NCBI RefSeq assembly: GCF_000219875.1 | Contig: NC_017167.1 | Span: 1,547,092 to 1,611,091 of the forward strand | Reading direction: 5' to 3' | From: Alicyclobacillus acidocaldarius subsp. acidocaldarius Tc-4-1 | GTDB lineage: Bacteria > Bacillota > Bacilli > Alicyclobacillales > Alicyclobacillaceae | DNA length: 64,000 bases | Part shown: positions 3,600-60,350 of the stretch, piece after piece | Layout: each line of letters opens with the position of its first letter | Numbering within the stretch: position 1 is the stretch's first letter | Program-made: the position numbers and the translations under genes | The notes under the pieces: model-generated | Told to the model about the DNA's origin: nothing | The model's input: the letters and a program-made list of their open reading frames with translations, nothing else | Database searches by the model: none

Positions 3600-5430
3600 C
3601 GGCGGAGATGGCCCCGCGCAAAATCTGCTTGAGCGCGCGCTCCATCGCCAGTGGCACGTCGTTGGGCGTTCTCGCGATGGCGAACGCGTGCCCGTACAGG
3701 TAACGCACGGCGTCGACGAGGGCCGCATCCACATCGCTCGCCACGACGAGGTGCACGACCTCGATACCCCGAGCGCGGACCTCTGCCACCGCGCGCCGCG
3801 TGTCCTCGTAGCCTCCCTCGTATCCCTCGGCAGCCGGCCTCGCGTCACTCACCAAAACCATCCATTTCGACGCCTGCGCAAACCGCGCCAGGCGCGCTGC
3901 GACGTGCCGTATCGCCGCGCCATCCCGATTGTCCAGTTCCGGTCGAAGCGCCCAAACCGCGGCGAGCGCGCCGGGATCGCGCGACTTTTCAAACGGCACG
4001 ACGTCCCAGATGACCGTCTCCAGGCGCGAAGCGCCCATCGGGGCATCGTCTTCCCAATAGGCCGAGACGCCAAACGACGCGCCCAGTGCGCGCAACACAT
4101 CCCCGAGCATCACAACGGCTTCTTTGCACGCGGGCAGGTACGGTTCCATGGAGCCCGAGACGTCGATGAGGATCTGCACGGCTGCGTCGTGCGCCAGAGG
4201 CCGCTCTTTTCTCGCCAGCACGCGCGGATACGGCTCGAACGCGACGCGCTCCACGTGCTTCAGCGTGCGCCCATGGCGCGACAACCCGCCTCCCCAAGCT
4301 CGGCGGCGCTCAAGATATTTCGCGAGGAGGCTCTGAAGCCGACGTCGATCCCGCGCCTGCGCGCGGCGCACGGACCGAAGCCAGTCTTGAGCCTCAGGCG
4401 TCGGGGGAACGTAGCCGCGCTCTCGGATGGCGTAGTCCGCATCCAGCCCCTGTTCGGCGCGAGGCGCCTCGTCGGCCTCCAGTCGTCCCTCGTGTTCCCC
4501 GCGAGTGTGGCTGCGCCGCGGCGGGCCTGACAGGCGAGCGAATGCCGTTCGTCCCACCTGCGCGACGTCATCGTCACCCAGCCGCCCCGCTCGAGCGGTC
4601 GGCGCCGCGCGGGAGCCCGTTTTCGCCGGTCCCTGGAGCAAGGCTCCGCGTTCCTCGTCCCGGGGTCGCGTCCAGATCTCCACGCGCGGATTCGACGCGC
4701 CTTCGACGGGTTCACTGTGGCGAAGCGCATGGCGTGATCGCGAGGGCGTATGAAAGCCCTCCAGATCTGCCGTGTCGCGAGAGGCTCCCGGGGCGAGATC
4801 CAACCAGATCTCGGCCAAATCTTCCACGCTCCGCCGCGCCATCGCCTCGCTTAGGCGATCCGCGGCCCACGCGGCAGCGAGAAGGGTGTCGCCTGAGAGC
4901 GCACTGCGCACGCTCATCGAGCGCCCGAGAAGTTCCGCCAACAGTTCCAAGTAGACGCACTCGGCGATGTCGATCCGGCCACCGTCTCGAGATCTCCATG
5001 CGGCCTGCCTTCGGACGCGGCTGCGATGAAAGGCCATTCGCTTGGCGAAGAGCCTTGCGACGCGTGGCCGCTCTCGAGAAAGCCAGAACATCAGGCGCGC
5101 GTCCTCGACGGTCATAAGCCATTGCCAAGCAAGCTTCGGGGCTTGGCATCTCTCCGACTCGCGGCGCGCGCTGAACAGGGCCGCCACATCGGTCAGCCGA
5201 ACGCTACCTCCAGCGCGCAGGTACACCTCGGCGCGCTCAAGCGCCCGCCGTTCCGCCCCACTTGCGGTCCGGTACGCATCGGGCAACTCGATGACACCTG
5301 TAGCGAGGTTGATGCTTGAGAGGCGGCCATACCTGCAACAAAGGCGGGCGTTGCGCGACAGAGCGCGAGCGAGGCCGGTGTACAGCGAGAGCGAAGGCTC
5401 GTCCTCGTATGGACTCGTGAAACGAAACAT
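3592..5430 (-). CDS. VWA-domain protein, CoxE/NorD-like partner of the MoxR ATPase
   Basis: 612 aa. The C-terminal third is a von Willebrand A domain with an intact MIDAS start (ILIDVSGSMEPY, DxSxS) and a later SDARPA aspartate; the N-terminal half is helical and arginine rich without a recognised domain. MoxR AAA ATPases and such VWA proteins commonly sit in pairs and act as chaperones that insert metals or activate enzyme complexes (e.g. NorQ/NorD, CoxD/CoxE). GGGAGG lies 7 bases before ATG 5430, and the ATPase stop is 12 bases upstream, so the two form an operon. No client enzyme is encoded nearby, so the target is unknown. Confidence 0.85.
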   Translation of the reverse strand: MFRFTSPYEDEPSLSLYTGLARALSRNARLCCRYGRLSSINLATGVIELPDAYRTASGAERRALERAEVYLRAGGSVRLTDVAALFSARRESERCQAPKLAWQWLMTVEDARLMFWLSRERPRVARLFAKRMAFHRSRVRRQAAWRSRDGGRIDIAECVYLELLAELLGRSMSVRSALSGDTLLAAAWAADRLSEAMARRSVEDLAEIWLDLAPGASRDTADLEGFHTPSRSRHALRHSEPVEGASNPRVEIWTRPRDEERGALLQGPAKTGSRAAPTARAGRLGDDDVAQVGRTAFARLSGPPRRSHTRGEHEGRLEADEAPRAEQGLDADYAIRERGYVPPTPEAQDWLRSVRRAQARDRRRLQSLLAKYLERRRAWGGGLSRHGRTLKHVERVAFEPYPRVLARKERPLAHDAAVQILIDVSGSMEPYLPACKEAVVMLGDVLRALGASFGVSAYWEDDAPMGASRLETVIWDVVPFEKSRDPGALAAVWALRPELDNRDGAAIRHVAARLARFAQASKWMVLVSDARPAAEGYEGGYEDTRRAVAEVRARGIEVVHLVVASDVDAALVDAVRYLYGHAFAIARTPNDVPLAMERALKQILRGAISAVR

Positions 5431-53355: not shown

Positions 53356-54012
53356 CTACTGAAGGGTATGTCGCATCCGAGTCGTGGGTGTGGGCAGCCG
53401 TCCGCTGGGCGCAAGATGGCGGCGCCCCGCGCGCCAGGCGAGTTCCATGAGAACCCATTCGATGGCGCTCGTCGTGACCGGAGCGCCGCGCGCGGGCGCA
53501 TCGAGTCCCCCTATTTTACCGATGTCGCCGATGCCGACGATGAGCGGCACATCCAAGCCGCAGAGCGCGTCCACGGTGTCCCCCGCGACGAGGTAGGCGT
53601 CCGTCTCATGTCCCTCCTTGTCGACCGCATGCTCGACGCGGCGGCCGTGACAATCGACGCTGAAGTCGACGGGTGTTCCGCGCACCCCTCCCGTGTGCGA
53701 AGCGACGGCCAGAATGGCGGCGATTTCGACCGACGGATGCGCACCGAGGACCCGCAGCGCAGACTCTCCTGCCGCCTCGGCGGGATCGCCGTTGTCATCC
53801 AGCATGACGATGACCGGATCGCGCGGGGCGGCCTCAACGCACCGCACGAGTTCCACGCCACTCAACCGTGTGGGATTTCCCCGGCTCTGCGCGACGAATG
53901 AACACCCTGTGCGCTTCGCTGCGATAGCCAGGGCTCGTGCAGCGACGCGATCGCCGTCCGTCACCACAATCACGCGGCGGGGATGCGAGACCACGTGGCG
54001 CAAGTGCCTCAC
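53356..54012 (-). CDS. spoVAEA: stage V sporulation protein AE, SpoVAEA
   Basis: 218 aa soluble protein. Segments [30 protein letters not shown] and [14 protein letters not shown] match the DUF1256-like SpoVAEA family. Part of the dipicolinate-channel operon. GTG 54012 overlaps the stop of spoVAEB (GTGA). The longer frame to 54360 overlaps spoVAEB and is not coding. Confidence 0.88.
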
Positions 54013-54368
54013 CCCTTCGGTTTCGCAAACACGGCGGCGAGAAACGCGAACACGATGGCGGCGGAGATACCCGCGCTCGTGACCTCGAAGATGCCGGTGA
54101 TCACGCCAATCAGCCCGTGAATCTTCGCCTCGTGCATGGCGCCGTGCACAAGGGCGTTCCCGAAGCTCGTGATGGGCACGGTCGCGCCAGCGCCGGCGAA
54201 CTTGATGAGCGGATCGTAAAGCCCTAAGCCGTCCGCCACCGCGCCAGCCACAACGAGGATGGACATGACGTGCCCAGGCGTGAGTTTGGTCGTGTCCATG
54301 ATCACTTGCCCAATGGCGCAGATGGCGCCACCCACCAAAAACGCCCACAAGAACGTCCACGCCGACAT
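54009..54368 (-). CDS. spoVAEB: stage V sporulation protein AE, SpoVAEB
   Basis: 119 aa, three to four helices, with the family segment [21 protein letters not shown] and [18 protein letters not shown]. It is a membrane part of the SpoVA channel that moves Ca-dipicolinate. ATG 54368 is 1 bp after the spoVAD stop and has GGGGGG upstream. Confidence 0.93.
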
Positions 54369-54369
54369 G

Positions 54370-55395
54370 TCAATCCCCCCGTTCGAATGCGATGGCGTGC
54401 GAGATGGACGGAATCGTATCCCCTTGCTGAGCGCTGACCTGCGATAGCAGCGCTCCCGTGGCGCACACCAGCAGCCGGTGAATGTGGCCGCGGTCCATCT
54501 CTCGGAACAGGTGTCCGAAGGTCACCAGGGTGCTGCACGCAGCCCCGCTGCCGCCCGAAAACACCTCAGGCTGATTTTCGTCATAGATCATGGCGCCACA
54601 ATCCTGGACCCGCTCCTCTGCGACCGTTGCTGACGCCAACCCCTGTTCGACGAGAAGATGGCGCAGGATGTCCAGCCCGACGCGGCCGAGATCACCCGTG
54701 ACGACGAGATCGTAGTCGACGACAGAGCGGCCGGTATCTTGCAGATGCTGTCGCAACGTATCACACGCGGCCGGCGCCATCGCCGCGCCCATTTCCCATG
54801 GGCACCTGACGCCGAAGTCCGCGATCTCGCCAATGGTTGCGTGGGTGATTTGCCACTTCCCACGGCCTCGCGCGAGGATGGCCGCGCCAGCGCCCGTGAC
54901 GGTGCGCTGAGCGGTTGGCGGGCGCTGGACGCCGTACTCCGTGGGATATCGGAACTGGCGCTCGGCCGTGCTGGTGTGACTCGACGTGCCGACGAGGACG
55001 ACATCCGCAAATCCGGTCGCCACAGCCAGACCAGCCACGGCAAGCGCCTCGCAGATGGAAGCGCAAGCGCTGTACACGCCCAGCATAGGCCTGGCCAAAG
55101 GCCTTAACCCCATATAGAACGATGTCAGTTGCGCGTTGAGATCCGCGCCGACGACGAGGTCGAGATCGCTCGGATGGACAGCCGCTTTTTCGCACGCGAT
55201 CTCGGCTGCTCGGCGAAACAACGCCTGTTCCGCCCGTTCCCAGGTGGCTTGCCCAGCGCGATCGTCATTTACGCGGACGTCGAAGGCGTCGGAGAGCGGG
55301 CCTTGCCCCTCCAAGGAGCCAGCCACGGTCGAAGTGGCCTTGACGGCTACCTGGCGTTCGCCGAATGCCCACGTGGAGCGCCCTAGTCTTGCCAC
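54370..55395 (-). CDS. spoVAD: stage V sporulation protein AD
   Basis: 341 aa thiolase-like protein that binds dipicolinate. Segments [37 protein letters not shown] and [19 protein letters not shown] are conserved. It is attached to the inner spore membrane. Sits between spoVAC and spoVAEB. Confidence 0.95.
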
Positions 55396-55410
55396 ACGTC
55401 ATCGCCCCTT

Positions 55411-55869
55411 CTAGAGGTGCTCCACCACGTATCGGATGAGCGCGATGAAGAACGCGCTGACAACCCCGTAGACAATGACGGGACCCGAGACCTTGAACAT
55501 GTTGCCGCCCACGCCCGCCACGAATCCCTCGCTGCGGTGTTCCATGGCGGCGGACGTCATCGTGTTGGAAAAACCTGTAACAGGTACGGCCGATCCGGCG
55601 CCAGCCCACTGCGCAAATCGGTCGTAGACGCCCATGGCGGTGAAGATCGCTGCTAGCAGGATGAGCACGGCGACCGTTGGATTCCCGGCCTCGGTGGGCT
55701 TGAAGCCGCCATACCGCACGAACAGGGCTTGGATCGCCTGTCCCAGTTCGCAGATGAGCCCACCGACGATGAAGGCTCGCACCGTATTTCGGAGGATGGG
55801 CCGTCCGGGCGTCAGGCGATTCACAAGCGCGTGGTACCGGGCTTGCTCCTCGGGTGTCGCGATTGGCAT
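55411..55869 (-). CDS. spoVAC: stage V sporulation protein AC
   Basis: 152 aa, several helices, with VGGLICELGQAIQALF and the GAGSAVPVTGFSNTMTSAAMEHRSEG segment; a mechanosensitive-like channel subunit for Ca-dipicolinate. ATG 55869 is preferred (GGGGGG 7 bases upstream). A spoVAA/AB counterpart is missing here. Confidence 0.93.
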   Translation of the reverse strand: MPIATPEEQARYHALVNRLTPGRPILRNTVRAFIVGGLICELGQAIQALFVRYGGFKPTEAGNPTVAVLILLAAIFTAMGVYDRFAQWAGAGSAVPVTGFSNTMTSAAMEHRSEGFVAGVGGNMFKVSGPVIVYGVVSAFFIALIRYVVEHL

Positions 55870-55919
55870 GCAAAATCCCCCCATCTCTTCTCGTCTATGT
55901 AACATGCCCCGAGGGCGCG

Positions 55920-55964: not shown

Positions 55965-56735
55965 TTATTCCAGTTCCTGTCGAATTTGCTGCAGGATTCG
56001 CTTTTCCAAACGCGAGACTTGCACCTGAGAAATGCCCAACACGCGCGCCACGTCGCTCTGCGTCTTATCGCGGAAGAATCGCATGTACACGATGAAGCGC
56101 TCACGCTCCGGTAGTCGCCCGATGATCTCGTGCAGCTCGACCTTGTCGAACTTGCCCTCGGTCTCCTCGTCCGCTATCTGGTCCATCAGATAGATGGGAT
56201 CCCCGTCGTTTTCGTACACGGTCTCATGGATCGACGCCGGTGCGCGAAGGGCTTCTTGCGCAAACACGATTTCCGAAGGCTCCATGCCCATGGCCTCGGC
56301 AATCTCGGTGATGTGCGGCTGGCGACCGAGTTCCTTCGCGAGCCGATCCCGCACGTGGCGGATCTGTTTCGCCGTCTCCTTGAGACTTCGGCTCACTTTG
56401 ACCGTGCTGTCGTCCCTCAGAAACCGCTGGATCTCGCCGATGATCATGGGGACGGCATACGTCGAGAATTTGACGTCGTAAGACAGGTCGAACTTGTCGA
56501 CGGCCTTCATCAGGCCGATGCATCCGATTTGGAAGAGATCTTCCGCTTCATAACCTCGCCCGAGAAATCGCTGGACGACGGCCCACACGAGGCGCTGGTT
56601 GTGAACAATGAGTCGCTCCCTCGCCTCCGCGTCGCCGTTGTGGCTCCGCTCCAGAAGCTCCCGGACCTCTTCGTCGGACAGTTTCTCATATTCATCCACA
56701 TGGTGTGGAACGGGGCGCTCCTTTGCCTGATCCAC
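55965..56735 (-). CDS. sigF: forespore RNA polymerase sigma factor SigF
   Basis: 256 aa. Region 2 (NQRLVWAVVQRFLGRGYEAEDLFQIGCIGLMKAVDKFD, broken here as recognised), region 3 and region 4 HTH (TQSDVARVLGISQVQVSRLEK). First compartment-specific sigma factor, held inactive by SpoIIAB. GTG start after GGGGGG. It follows spoIIAB by 12 bp. Confidence 0.96.
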   Translation of the reverse strand: MDQAKERPVPHHVDEYEKLSDEEVRELLERSHNGDAEARERLIVHNQRLVWAVVQRFLGRGYEAEDLFQIGCIGLMKAVDKFDLSYDVKFSTYAVPMIIGEIQRFLRDDSTVKVSRSLKETAKQIRHVRDRLAKELGRQPHITEIAEAMGMEPSEIVFAQEALRAPASIHETVYENDGDPIYLMDQIADEETEGKFDKVELHEIIGRLPERERFIVYMRFFRDKTQSDVARVLGISQVQVSRLEKRILQQIRQELE

Positions 56736-56747
56736 GTGCGACCCCCC

Positions 56748-57218
56748 TCACATCACGTCAGGGGCAGTTCGGAACGTCTTGATGAGCGTGACGCGCGTTC
56801 CTTCTCCTGGCTTGGACTCGATCTCCATCTTGTCGACGAAGGTCTCCATGATGGTCATGCCCATGCCTGACCGTTCGAGCTCGGGGCGCGACGTGTACAT
56901 CGGTTGTTTGGCGAGGTCCACGTCGGGAATGCCCACGCCCCGGTCCTCGACGACGACTCGCACGCGATTTCCGTACAAGGCGCACTCCACGGTCACCTCG
57001 CCGATCTCGTCCGGGTAACCGTGAATGATGGCGTTTGTCACGGCCTCCGACACCGCCGTTTTCAATTCCGTCAACTCTTCCATCGTCGGATCGAGCGGCG
57101 CCACAAACGAAGCGACCGCCACGCGAGCCAGCGACTCGTTCTCCGACCGGCTCGGAAACACAAGGCGCAGATAGTTGTCCACGCGCACGTCTTCGGCCAC
57201 TCGTTCCACGGCCATCAC
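56748..57218 (-). CDS. spoIIAB: anti-sigma F factor SpoIIAB
   Basis: 156 aa GHKL-fold kinase. N box SEAVTNAIIHGYPDE, G1 VEDRGVGIPDV, G2 RSGMGMTIME. It binds SigF and phosphorylates SpoIIAA. The GTG at 57218 overlaps the spoIIAA stop (GTGA); ATG 57215 is an alternative. Confidence 0.95.
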   Translation of the reverse strand: MMAVERVAEDVRVDNYLRLVFPSRSENESLARVAVASFVAPLDPTMEELTELKTAVSEAVTNAIIHGYPDEIGEVTVECALYGNRVRVVVEDRGVGIPDVDLAKQPMYTSRPELERSGMGMTIMETFVDKMEIESKPGEGTRVTLIKTFRTAPDVM

Positions 57219-57559
57219 GCTCCCAGGATTGCTGCCACCGCAGCTTCTTCAGAGTCGTAAACGGGTATCACCTTGAGCAAACCCGACATTTCGAAGAGCC
57301 GCCTCAACGTCGGGTTGACTTCACAAAGCGCCATTTTACCCCCGTGCTCGGAGACGCTTCGATACCGGCCCAGAATGAGTCCGAGGCCCGAACTGTCCAT
57401 AAAATCGATGTTCCGAAACGACATCACGAGACCCCGGTAGCCGTGCTCCGCCAATTGTTGTTCGATCCGGTCCCTCATTTGTTCCACGGCGTGGTGATCC
57501 AGTTCTCCCTTTAACTCGATCACCACGATTCCTCGCTCTAATTTGGTCTCGACAGACAC
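57215..57559 (-). CDS. spoIIAA: anti-sigma F antagonist SpoIIAA
   Basis: 114 aa STAS domain. The phosphorylated Ser is in FMDSSGLGLILGRY near residue 57. Dephosphorylated SpoIIAA frees SigF from SpoIIAB. GTG 57559 after GAGGGG fits the normal length. Confidence 0.95.
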   Translation of the reverse strand: MSVETKLERGIVVIELKGELDHHAVEQMRDRIEQQLAEHGYRGLVMSFRNIDFMDSSGLGLILGRYRSVSEHGGKMALCEVNPTLRRLFEMSGLLKVIPVYDSEEAAVAAILGA

Positions 57560-57593
57560 CTTGCATCCCCTCTCCTTATGCGGTCTGGTCAAG

Positions 57594-57623
57594 AAATTCA
57601 CGGCCTAAACGGGGAATTCCTGC
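57594..57623 (-). promoter_or_regulatory. sigma-H type promoter of spoIIA
   Basis: -35 GCAGGAATT (57615-57623, matches RnAGGAwww) and -10 CGTGAATTT (57594-57602, close to RnnGAATww) 12 bp apart. B. subtilis spoIIA is read by sigma-H with Spo0A-P; the same class is seen here. The -10 first base is C, not a purine. Confidence 0.7.
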
Positions 57624-57726
57624 CCATTGACAAAAGTAGTGGAGAATCTACTGAATTCGACAACCAAACGATGACGCATCAGAGGCGCTGGCGGTACAAT
57701 GGAAAGGAGAAGATAGGAGGCGAAGT

Positions 57727-59037
57727 ATGGAGACGCTTGGTCAAAAGATTCGCGCGCTGCGCAAGGCGCGAGGCATGACGCAGGCCGAACTCGCTCGAGG
57801 ACTCGCAACCGCCAGTATGATCAGCCAGATCGAATCCGACAGGACAATGCCGTCTGCCCAACTGCTGACCCAGATCGCGGCGCGCCTCGGCGTCGATGTC
57901 TCCGAGTTCCAGAAGCAACTGGCCGGATCGTCTGAGGAGGCTCACACGTATCGCCGTGCCAAGCAACTTGCGGAACAGGGACACTATGAAGAAGCCATTC
58001 GGCATTTTCTTTCGCTCTCCTGGCCGCTTCACTCGCAGTTTCGCCCGGAACTCGTCTTTCAGGATATGGGAGACTGTTATTTGAAGGCCGGAGACTACGA
58101 ACAGGCCGCCCGCCTCTACGACGCGTTGGTCTTCGCGGGGTTTGCGCGAGGCGACATGTCGAGCGTGGTCCGAGGCTACTATTACGGGGCTCTCGCGCGG
58201 CGGCGGTTGCAGCGAGACGAGGAGGCCATCCTATACTTGCAGCGCGCGCGCCAAGCGCTCGCGGCGTCTGGGCTTCAAATGCCCCTCCGTCTGAAGATCG
58301 AGATGACCCTCGCGCGGCTGCTCCTCCAGTATGGCCCCGTGGCCGAGGCGCGGTCCCTCTACGAAGGCATCCTGGCGCGCGACACGGAACCCATGTCCAC
58401 GGTCGATCGCGCCCACGCCCACCACGGACTCGCCTGTGCGGCTGCAGCCGTCGGCGACTATCGAGCGGCCATCGAACATGCGGGGCGCGCCATTGAGCTG
58501 CACGAAGACGCTGGCAATCGCGCCTTGGCGATGCGCTGCCGCATCAATTTGGGAGCGTTCTTGCGACTCGGAGGAGATGTTGCGGGCGCACTGTCCCATC
58601 TCCTCGACCTGGAGGATAGGACGAGTCCTCGAGACGAAGTCCTTCGGGTTGCGCTCGATCACGAGTTGGCGCTGACCTATCAGGCGCTGCATCAGCCTGC
58701 GTCCGCGATGGATCGCGTATCCCGAGCGCTCGCGATGACCCGGGTCGGCCCCGAGATCCGAGCCCAGCTTCACCTGCTCGCAGCCTCGCTGAACCTCGAG
58801 TTGGGCGATCTCGACCGGGCCGAGTTGGAGCTTCGCGCCCTCGACGCGCTTGTCGCCGAGCATCCCGACATCGCGCCTTCGGGGTACCTCCATCTGAAGG
58901 CCGAAGTGTATCTGCACAAGGGGAGCACCCCCGAGATCCTGCAGCTCTGCGAGGAAGCCGTCGCCCGGGAAACTCAGCGCCATCCCGAACGGCCATGGGC
59001 TGCGCCCGATCGATTCTGGCTATTTCCCCGCCAATAA
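57727..59037 (+). CDS. XRE HTH-TPR regulator (RNPP-like layout)
   Basis: 436 aa. HTH at residues about 7-60 (MTQAELARG... ISQIESDRTMPS) then about eight TPR-like helix pairs up to residue 410. This is the layout of peptide-sensing regulators (Rgg/PlcR/Rap relatives). AGGAGG lies 6 bases before ATG 57727. It diverges from spoIIA over a 167-bp intergenic region. No short pheromone gene is seen directly downstream, so peptide control is only possible. The end lacks a terminator of its own strand except the shared hairpin. Confidence 0.82.
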   Translation: METLGQKIRALRKARGMTQAELARGLATASMISQIESDRTMPSAQLLTQIAARLGVDVSEFQKQLAGSSEEAHTYRRAKQLAEQGHYEEAIRHFLSLSWPLHSQFRPELVFQDMGDCYLKAGDYEQAARLYDALVFAGFARGDMSSVVRGYYYGALARRRLQRDEEAILYLQRARQALAASGLQMPLRLKIEMTLARLLLQYGPVAEARSLYEGILARDTEPMSTVDRAHAHHGLACAAAAVGDYRAAIEHAGRAIELHEDAGNRALAMRCRINLGAFLRLGGDVAGALSHLLDLEDRTSPRDEVLRVALDHELALTYQALHQPASAMDRVSRALAMTRVGPEIRAQLHLLAASLNLELGDLDRAELELRALDALVAEHPDIAPSGYLHLKAEVYLHKGSTPEILQLCEEAVARETQRHPERPWAAPDRFWLFPRQ

Positions 59038-59038
59038 G

Positions 59039-59085
59039 AAAAAACGCGCCCAATCGACACGGTTCGCGCCGCCTGAGGCGGCGCG
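59039..59085 (-). terminator. terminator after dacF
   Basis: Perfect 9-bp stem CGCGCCGCC/GGCGGCGCG (59065-59085) and, further on, GGGCGCG with TTTTTT on the minus strand. An alternative fold pairs the first CGCGCC with GGCGCG next to the T run. It also lies just past the convergent XRE-TPR stop. Confidence 0.6.
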
Positions 59086-59105
59086 TCCTGCTTGATGGCG
59101 CGGTT

Positions 59106-60350
59106 TCATTGGGCTTGGCCGAACGTGATCACTTTCTTCACGGTCTTGCCAAGGCTCTGGAAGAACGTGGCCTTTGGCACGTCCTCCTTCGCGACAACCG
59201 GGACATCCGCCACGACGCGTCCTCCCGATTTGACCAGAACATGTCCGACGACCTGGCCGCGGGACACGGGAGCCTTGAGCGTCATCCACTGGATCTCGGT
59301 CGTGTACGCGGTGTTGTGGGCACGCTCGGTGACAAAAGCCACGGGCTCGGCCGTCACCGCCTCGACGCGATCGCGCGTGCCTCGTTTGACCGCGACCTGC
59401 CCCACGACGTGGCCGCGGGGATAGACCTGAACCGATTTGTAGTGTGCGAATGCGTAATTCAGCATCGCCGCGACTTCGGCATTCCGGACCGTAGGTTTAG
59501 GCTCCCCCATCACGACGGCGATCACGCGAAACCCATCGCGCTTCGCCGTAGCAGAAAGACAATACTTCGCCTCCTGCGTGTAACCCGTCTTGAGGCCGTC
59601 GACTCCATCGTAAAAGCGCACGAGTTTGTTGGTGTTCACCAGCCAGAGGGGGTGATCGGTATCTTTGCGCAAGTAATCGCTGTACACCGAGGTAAACGCC
59701 GTGACCTCGGGATGCATCAGGAGCGCCCTCGACATGATGGCGATGTCGCGCGCACTGGAATAATGGTTTGGAGCAGGCAGCCCGTTGCAGTTAGCGAAGT
59801 GCGTGTCGGTCATGCCGAGTTCCTTCGCGCGTTGGTTCATGCGGGCGACGAACGCCTCTTCGCTCCCGTCAAGGTGTTCTGCCATAGCGACGCAGGCGTC
59901 GTTCGCCGAAGCGATGGCGATGCCTTTCACGAGGTCCCGCACGGTCATGGTCTCGCCGGGTTCGAGAAAGATTTGCGAACCGCCCATGCTCGCGGCTCGC
60001 TCGCTCGCCTGGACGCGATCGGTCCACTTCAGCTTGCCGCTGTCAATCGCTTCGAAGATGAGAAGAAGGGTCATGATCTTCGTGATGCTCGCCATGGGCA
60101 GCCGCTCGTGGGCATTTTTCGCGTAGAGCACCTTGCCGGTTGCAAAATCCATGAGGACCGCAGACCGCGCCTGTTTGGCGAGATCGACGCTTGAGGTTGG
60201 CGTAGAGGTCGTCGAGCCCGCGTCCGTCGCCTCGCGCATTTGCGCAATCCCAGGCGCTGACGCAGCACGAGCAATCTGTGGCATGGCGCTCGTCGCGATG
60301 AGACACAGAGCGCCGAGGCCAAGCCCGAGCGCGCGAGAATGCCGCTTCAT
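59106..60350 (-). CDS. dacF: D-alanyl-D-alanine carboxypeptidase DacF
   Basis: 414 aa PBP5-family. Signal peptide (GLGLGALCLIATSAMPQIARA), SxxK in ASITKIMT, SxN in SANDACV, KTG in DGLKTGYTQ; a C-terminal beta domain and an amphipathic end. It trims D-Ala from peptides, in the forespore in Bacillus. ATG 60350 has GGAGG upstream; the longer frame to 60764 runs over deoB and is not coding. Confidence 0.95.
   Translation of the reverse strand: MKRHSRALGLGLGALCLIATSAMPQIARAASAPGIAQMREATDAGSTTSTPTSSVDLAKQARSAVLMDFATGKVLYAKNAHERLPMASITKIMTLLLIFEAIDSGKLKWTDRVQASERAASMGGSQIFLEPGETMTVRDLVKGIAIASANDACVAMAEHLDGSEEAFVARMNQRAKELGMTDTHFANCNGLPAPNHYSSARDIAIMSRALLMHPEVTAFTSVYSDYLRKDTDHPLWLVNTNKLVRFYDGVDGLKTGYTQEAKYCLSATAKRDGFRVIAVVMGEPKPTVRNAEVAAMLNYAFAHYKSVQVYPRGHVVGQVAVKRGTRDRVEAVTAEPVAFVTERAHNTAYTTEIQWMTLKAPVSRGQVVGHVLVKSGGRVVADVPVVAKEDVPKATFFQSLGKTVKKVITFGQAQ

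Follow-up and report, generated by a model that had tools for sequence, protein, structure and literature searches.

The window, a 64,000-bp stretch of the Alicyclobacillus acidocaldarius subsp. acidocaldarius Tc-4-1 genome, contains an intact gene for an XRE-TPR regulator beside the operon encoding sigma-F (Table 1). An earlier interpretation made from the DNA letters (the sequence-only reading) had placed this gene divergent from spoIIA across a shared gap of 167 bp, and both the orientation and the exact length hold. That reading did not mention dacF, which adjoins the other side of the gene and so places the regulator between dacF and spoIIAA. On the spoIIA side, the minus-strand run is spoIIAA-spoIIAB-sigF-spoVAC-spoVAD-spoVAE, with the three spoVA genes in line after sigF (positions 54009 to 55905) and no gene intervening between sigF and spoVAC.

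Table 1. Features of the dacF-regulator-spoIIA locus (positions in the window)
Feature	Position	Strand	Basis
sigF (spoIIAC)	55965..56735	-	TIGR02885 above cut-off
spoIIAB, start codon provisional	56748..57215	-	TIGR01925 above cut-off
spoIIAA, GTG start at 57559	57215..57559	-	TIGR02886 above cut-off
Shared region between spoIIAA and regulator start codons, 167 bp	57560..57726	.	Sequence
Sigma-H-type -10 CGTGAATTT, 12 bp past -35	57594..57602	-	Consensus; one mismatch to RNNGAATNN
Sigma-H-type -35 GCAGGAATT	57615..57623	-	
Second Spo0A-type box, within CTACTTTTGTCAA	57627..57639	-	Conserved with or without regulator
Distal Spo0A-type box TTGTCGAA	57656..57663	-	Conservation, consensus
Regulator promoter-like site ATGACG-N18-TACAAT	57671..57700	+	TACAAT present in 6/6 close species
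XRE-TPR regulator gene, 436 aa, ATG start, intact	57727..59037	+	ORF call, Pfam, AlphaFold2 model
XRE helix-turn-helix domain, residues 8-61	57748..57909	+	Pfam HTH_3, E 1.1e-12
Nine TPR helix pairs, residues 59-417	57901..58977	+	AlphaFold2 model
68-bp gap between regulator and dacF stops; terminator-like hairpin and T-run in dacF direction	59038..59105	-	
dacF, D-alanyl-D-alanine carboxypeptidase, convergent with regulator	59106..60350	-	Pfam Peptidase_S11 + PBP5_C

Beyond the HTH_3 domain, the rest of the regulator matches several TPR families in Pfam. An AlphaFold2 model built on an alignment of 62 homologues shows the HTH followed by nine helix pairs, with a mean pLDDT of 89.8. The HTH_3 match, the TPR matches, and this confident model bear out the earlier description of an HTH-TPR protein with peptide-receptor architecture; the estimate of about eight repeats is corrected to nine helix pairs. 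The HTH is the part of the regulator family with the highest conservation. No NCBIfam family scored above its cut-off, so the protein is without a named family there. A second, distant HTH-TPR protein of 477 aa is encoded in the same genome (G000:C1:2725563-2726996; L202:3064-4497), divergent from an OmpR-type response regulator gene. Relatives are found at L203 and L204, with a divergent gene of similar size.

Distribution and divergence of the regulator

The sequence-only reading had named absence from close relatives as evidence against its proposal. Instead, the regulator lies between dacF and spoIIAA in all 15 genomes of the genus, and 11 of the 13 remaining family genomes have it in the same slot (26 of 28 overall, the two exceptions being G015 and G016). 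Species with a copy in the slot include Alicyclobacillus sendaiensis, A. mali, A. hesperidum, A. fastidiosus, A. pomorum, A. contaminans, A. herbarius, and A. tolerans. In the sister family f2, the regulator occupies the slot in 12 of 13 assessable genomes, a count that leaves out one contig ending after the regulator and dacF and two contigs that are too short; the genome without it is G032. Since the position is kept in dozens of genomes, chance placement is excluded. We infer that the absences in G015, G016, and G032 are losses, because these genomes hold no full-length copy elsewhere; the regulator would thus be dispensable for keeping spoIIA.

Outside the order, the regulator adjoins spoIIA in family f36 and in two genomes of f14, with one intervening gene in two further f14 genomes; this gene has the size of a pyridine-nucleotide oxidoreductase, an identity established in one genome. 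In the six genomes of Tumebacillaceae (f37), one to three genes lie between the regulator and spoIIA. Several sister-order genomes carry an oxidoreductase gene directly 5' of spoIIAA on the same strand (L083:2298-3635, L198:1959-3302, and L163:3219-4601); those of L083 and L163 are of the pyridine nucleotide-disulphide type, and that of L198 has no annotation. As the sequence-only reading had noted for B. subtilis, the slot lacks the gene in most Bacilli families: the regulator is not beside spoIIA in 31 other families, represented by one or two genomes each, most of which have dacF directly upstream of spoIIA. Unlinked homologues are found in f22 and f29.

The regulator diverges much faster than its neighbors. 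Between the window and A. sacchari, identity is 42% for the regulator, compared with 83% for spoIIAA, 85% for spoIIAB, and 76% for dacF. Its dN/dS of 0.09-0.14 indicates purifying selection. Divergence is slower in the first half of the TPR array (residues 67-230) than in the second, and the A helices are usually more conserved than their paired B helices. The A helices are expected to line the concave groove, and this conservation pattern, common for TPR proteins, is no more than a hint of a ligand.

Phylogenetic trees, which were quick searches without bootstrap, recovered the spoIIA-linked copies as well-supported clades within each lineage, with no such support at the deep branches. A large group of Tumebacillus paralogues branches with the Tumebacillus copy near spoIIA (support 95-96), a grouping that also includes unlinked copies from other families.

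Promoter elements, operator candidates, and the dacF terminator

Among six close species, the spoIIA side of the shared region is invariant at 94 of 105 positions; for the side facing the regulator, the count is 27 of 62. At a threshold of at least 15 of 18 matches, the 0A-plus-GCAGGA element is present in 39 of 43 loci with the regulator, in 32 of 37 loci without it, and in none of 1,600 shuffles. This element, with its sigma-H part, is equally frequent without the regulator and therefore represents general spoIIA promoter architecture that is uninformative about the regulator. The upstream 0A box lies approximately 40 bp before the regulator -10, a placement from which Spo0A could act on the regulator gene as well as on spoIIA. 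At the distal box, a perfect TGTCGRA occurs in 23 of 24 Alicyclobacillaceae loci with the gene, in 6 of 11 f2 loci, and in none of the 33 loci without the regulator.

The search for a regulator operator yielded no conserved spoIIA promoter site specific to the regulator, a result that leaves room for a species-specific one. The motif CTASTTTTGTC-N5-GCAGGAW was rejected as an operator because it is present in families without the gene. TA[GT]TANAAT is enriched near linked copies (26 of 49, compared with 3 of 50 paralogues), although these sequences are related and the motif includes a normal -10; f2 lacks the motif, and the window has a degenerate form of it. A palindrome search near the regulator -10 was negative for most loci and strong in L083 and L185 only, and an inverted repeat at this position was consequently rejected as a general operator. 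The long inverted repeats beside the -10 in these two loci, TACTATTCC-N12-GGAATAGTA upstream of position 3787 in L083 and ACACTATTTC-N7-GAAATAGTGT upstream of the regulator gene in L185, are candidate operators in sister orders. Neither loci with the regulator nor those without have a strict sigma-F promoter before spoIIAA, so this comparison is uninformative.

We also considered, and rejected, a meaningful loss in Alicyclobacillaceae of a third 0A-like CGA box (present in 1 of 24 loci, compared with 23 of 33). The difference is better explained by a dacF terminator (CTCGATTTTTT) that, at loci where dacF is next to spoIIA, lies right against the promoter. In many Bacilli families with dacF before spoIIA, a strong intrinsic terminator abuts the Spo0A/sigma-H element (loci L131, L136, L147, L149-L151, L154, L157, L158, and L166); it often ends in CTCGATTTTTT, and its loop often contains a 0A-like box.

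Read-through from dacF is reportedly a contributor to sigma-F autoregulation in B. subtilis, a finding attributed to Schuch and Piggot in 1994. The regulator insertion could then matter mainly by parting dacF from spoIIA and blocking this read-through. The opposite orientation of the regulator gene, together with a strong terminator in the dacF direction that the window shares with most of its closest relatives, would fit this. However, even where the regulator is absent, many families have a terminator-like hairpin separating dacF from spoIIA (17 of 33, about a dozen of them strong), and the regulator coding sequence is itself under purifying selection. We therefore consider this explanation very improbable.

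Candidate signals and function

The sequence-only reading saw no companion pheromone gene, and this observation extends to all linked copies surveyed: none of the 24 has a small ORF bearing a signal peptide at its end, and a companion peptide adjoining the regulator was rejected on this basis. The space between a linked regulator and dacF is under about 210 bp, and two weak small-ORF matches start more than 175 nt downstream of linked copies. A Phr-like propeptide gene accompanies 6 of 48 unlinked paralogues, all six in Tumebacillus; by count alone, the difference from 0 of 24 linked copies is not significant. The six Tumebacillus ORFs (L052, L062, L065, L069, L070, and L078, near position 5280) encode 36-61 aa with a signal peptide, overlap the receptor stop by 4 nt, and carry motifs such as SINDPT (twice) and FDPDPL, both C-terminal, and SIVDP/SIYDP. 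Judged by this organization, these are apparent RRNPP-type quorum-sensing pairs, and we found no published work joining Tumebacillus with RRNPP. Putative eavesdropper RRNPP receptors have been discussed (PMC9765709).

We favor, with a probability of about 0.6, the explanation that an orphan, ligand-responsive, RRNPP-like regulator occupies the dacF-spoIIA slot with its own promoter as first target and spoIIA as second; control of itself is probable and control of spoIIA possible. The gene would have been inherited mainly vertically in this slot across Alicyclobacillales and sister orders and would be made from its own sigma-A-type promoter. The protein is predicted to dimerize and to bind in or near the 167-bp region, where a ligand (an imported peptide or a metabolite) or a protein partner in the TPR groove may alter binding. 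Its most likely target would be its own promoter, amounting to autoregulation; a reasonable second step would be for it to modulate the neighboring spoIIA promoter, driven by Spo0A and sigma-H, with a putative effect on sigma-F. In favor of this explanation are the domain content with the confident model, the profile matches to structures of PlcR, NprR, and Rap, the low dN/dS, and the usually stronger conservation of the A helices. In addition, the slot is kept in 26 of 28 family and 12 of 13 sister-family genomes despite fast divergence, and analogy with the propeptide-bearing Tumebacillus relatives and with RstA, an orphan, self-repressing RRNPP protein that affects sporulation, may point the same way. 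Counting against it, there is no regulator-specific site, the pair is not adjacent in Tumebacillaceae or in part of f14, the gene is lost from G015, G016, and G032, and RRNPP homology is inseparable from generic TPR similarity.

The alternative explanations overlap, so our confidences do not sum to one. The regulator may control only itself or distant genes, with its site beside spoIIA an inherited insertion that has no function for spoIIA. We rate this as a serious possibility at somewhat below even odds, given the one to three genes that part the pair in Tumebacillaceae and half of f14, a spoIIA promoter without a regulator-specific element, and the unlinked homologues in f22 and f29; yet neutral shuffling should have parted the genes, and in two families almost every genome has them adjacent. 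That same near-constant divergent adjacency despite fast protein divergence, together with the peptide-receptor architecture, the propeptide-bearing relatives in Tumebacillus, and the 94 invariant positions out of 105 that lie 5' of spoIIA in six species, would fit the strong form of the sequence-only reading, in which the protein controls spoIIA directly and an extracellular peptide thereby gates early gene expression in the forespore. We find this doubtful, as the conserved elements are those of the general Spo0A/sigma-H promoter and equally frequent without the gene, the 24 linked copies have no adjacent pheromone gene, and spoIIA is kept in lineages without the regulator while the pair is parted in sister orders. 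The tie of sigma-F expression to a signal suggested by the sequence-only reading is likewise unsupported so far: the elements facing spoIIA are shared with genomes without the gene, three lineages keep spoIIA without the regulator, and intervening genes occur between the two in sister orders.

The Rap family and other well-studied RRNPP proteins influence sporulation at an upstream point, the phosphorelay. A receptor retained next to the sigma-F operon in several lineages would let a later signal enter. We think it improbable, though conceivable, that this amounts to an order-wide ligand-gated checkpoint after Spo0A that acts directly at the sigma-F operon, with the receptor setting spoIIA transcription in response to an imported peptide or metabolite and with copies of the receptor having founded the Tumebacillus pheromone receptors. 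Even without action on spoIIA, the favored orphan regulator marks a large, barely described HTH-TPR group, some members of which have their own pheromones.

Comparison with known HTH-TPR receptors

The sequence-only reading had proposed a comparison with PlcR, Rgg, and Rap. Structures of PlcR, NprR, and Rap match the regulator profile, but with lower scores than generic TPR proteins, and the fold search likewise places eukaryotic TPR proteins ahead of PlcR; specific RRNPP homology is thus not separable from generic TPR similarity. A search against viral protein folds gave generic TPR matches only, and a viral origin was rejected.

RRNPP(A) receptors have five or nine TPRs and an XRE-type HTH that is absent only in Rap-like members. 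The regulator has the N-terminal XRE-type HTH and a C-terminal array of nine TPRs; the adjacent secreted propeptide gene, to which orphans are known exceptions, is found beside none of the 24 linked copies. NprR of Bacillus shares the HTH-nine-TPR build, and its structures 5dbk and 4gpk match the regulator profile over the later TPRs with E of about 1e-17. The NprR gene has the NprX propeptide gene as its neighbor, whereas the regulator has none. PlcR of the Bacillus cereus group is also an HTH-TPR peptide receptor, the sole HTH-TPR regulator among the matches listed in the fold search, and its HTH aligns with that of the regulator; PlcR differs in having five TPRs, an adjacent papR, and a virulence regulon. 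The Rap phosphatases, TPR proteins acting on Spo0F, lack the HTH that the regulator has.

Two further systems were compared by description. AloR is an HTH-TPR receptor reported essentially from Paenibacillaceae (PMC7425212), with a nine-TPR fold (PMC12700828). The aloP propeptide gene normally follows AloR, in contrast to the linked regulator copies, which none follows; some AloR copies are orphans, and one AloR controls a spo0E gene (PMC7425212). RstA of Clostridioides difficile is an orphan of RRNPP type without an adjacent propeptide; it affects sporulation and acts as a repressor of its own gene (PMC6414698). It belongs to another species group and is not known to be linked to spoIIA. PMC10075063 mentions candidate RRNPP systems in Alicyclobacillaceae only in passing, and for the linkage of the regulator to spoIIA we found no published description. 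Although RRNPP membership is not settled, because there is no propeptide gene next to the regulator and its specific homology is inseparable from generic TPR similarity, the regulator resembles an RRNPP receptor of the HTH-nine-TPR kind represented by AloR and NprR.
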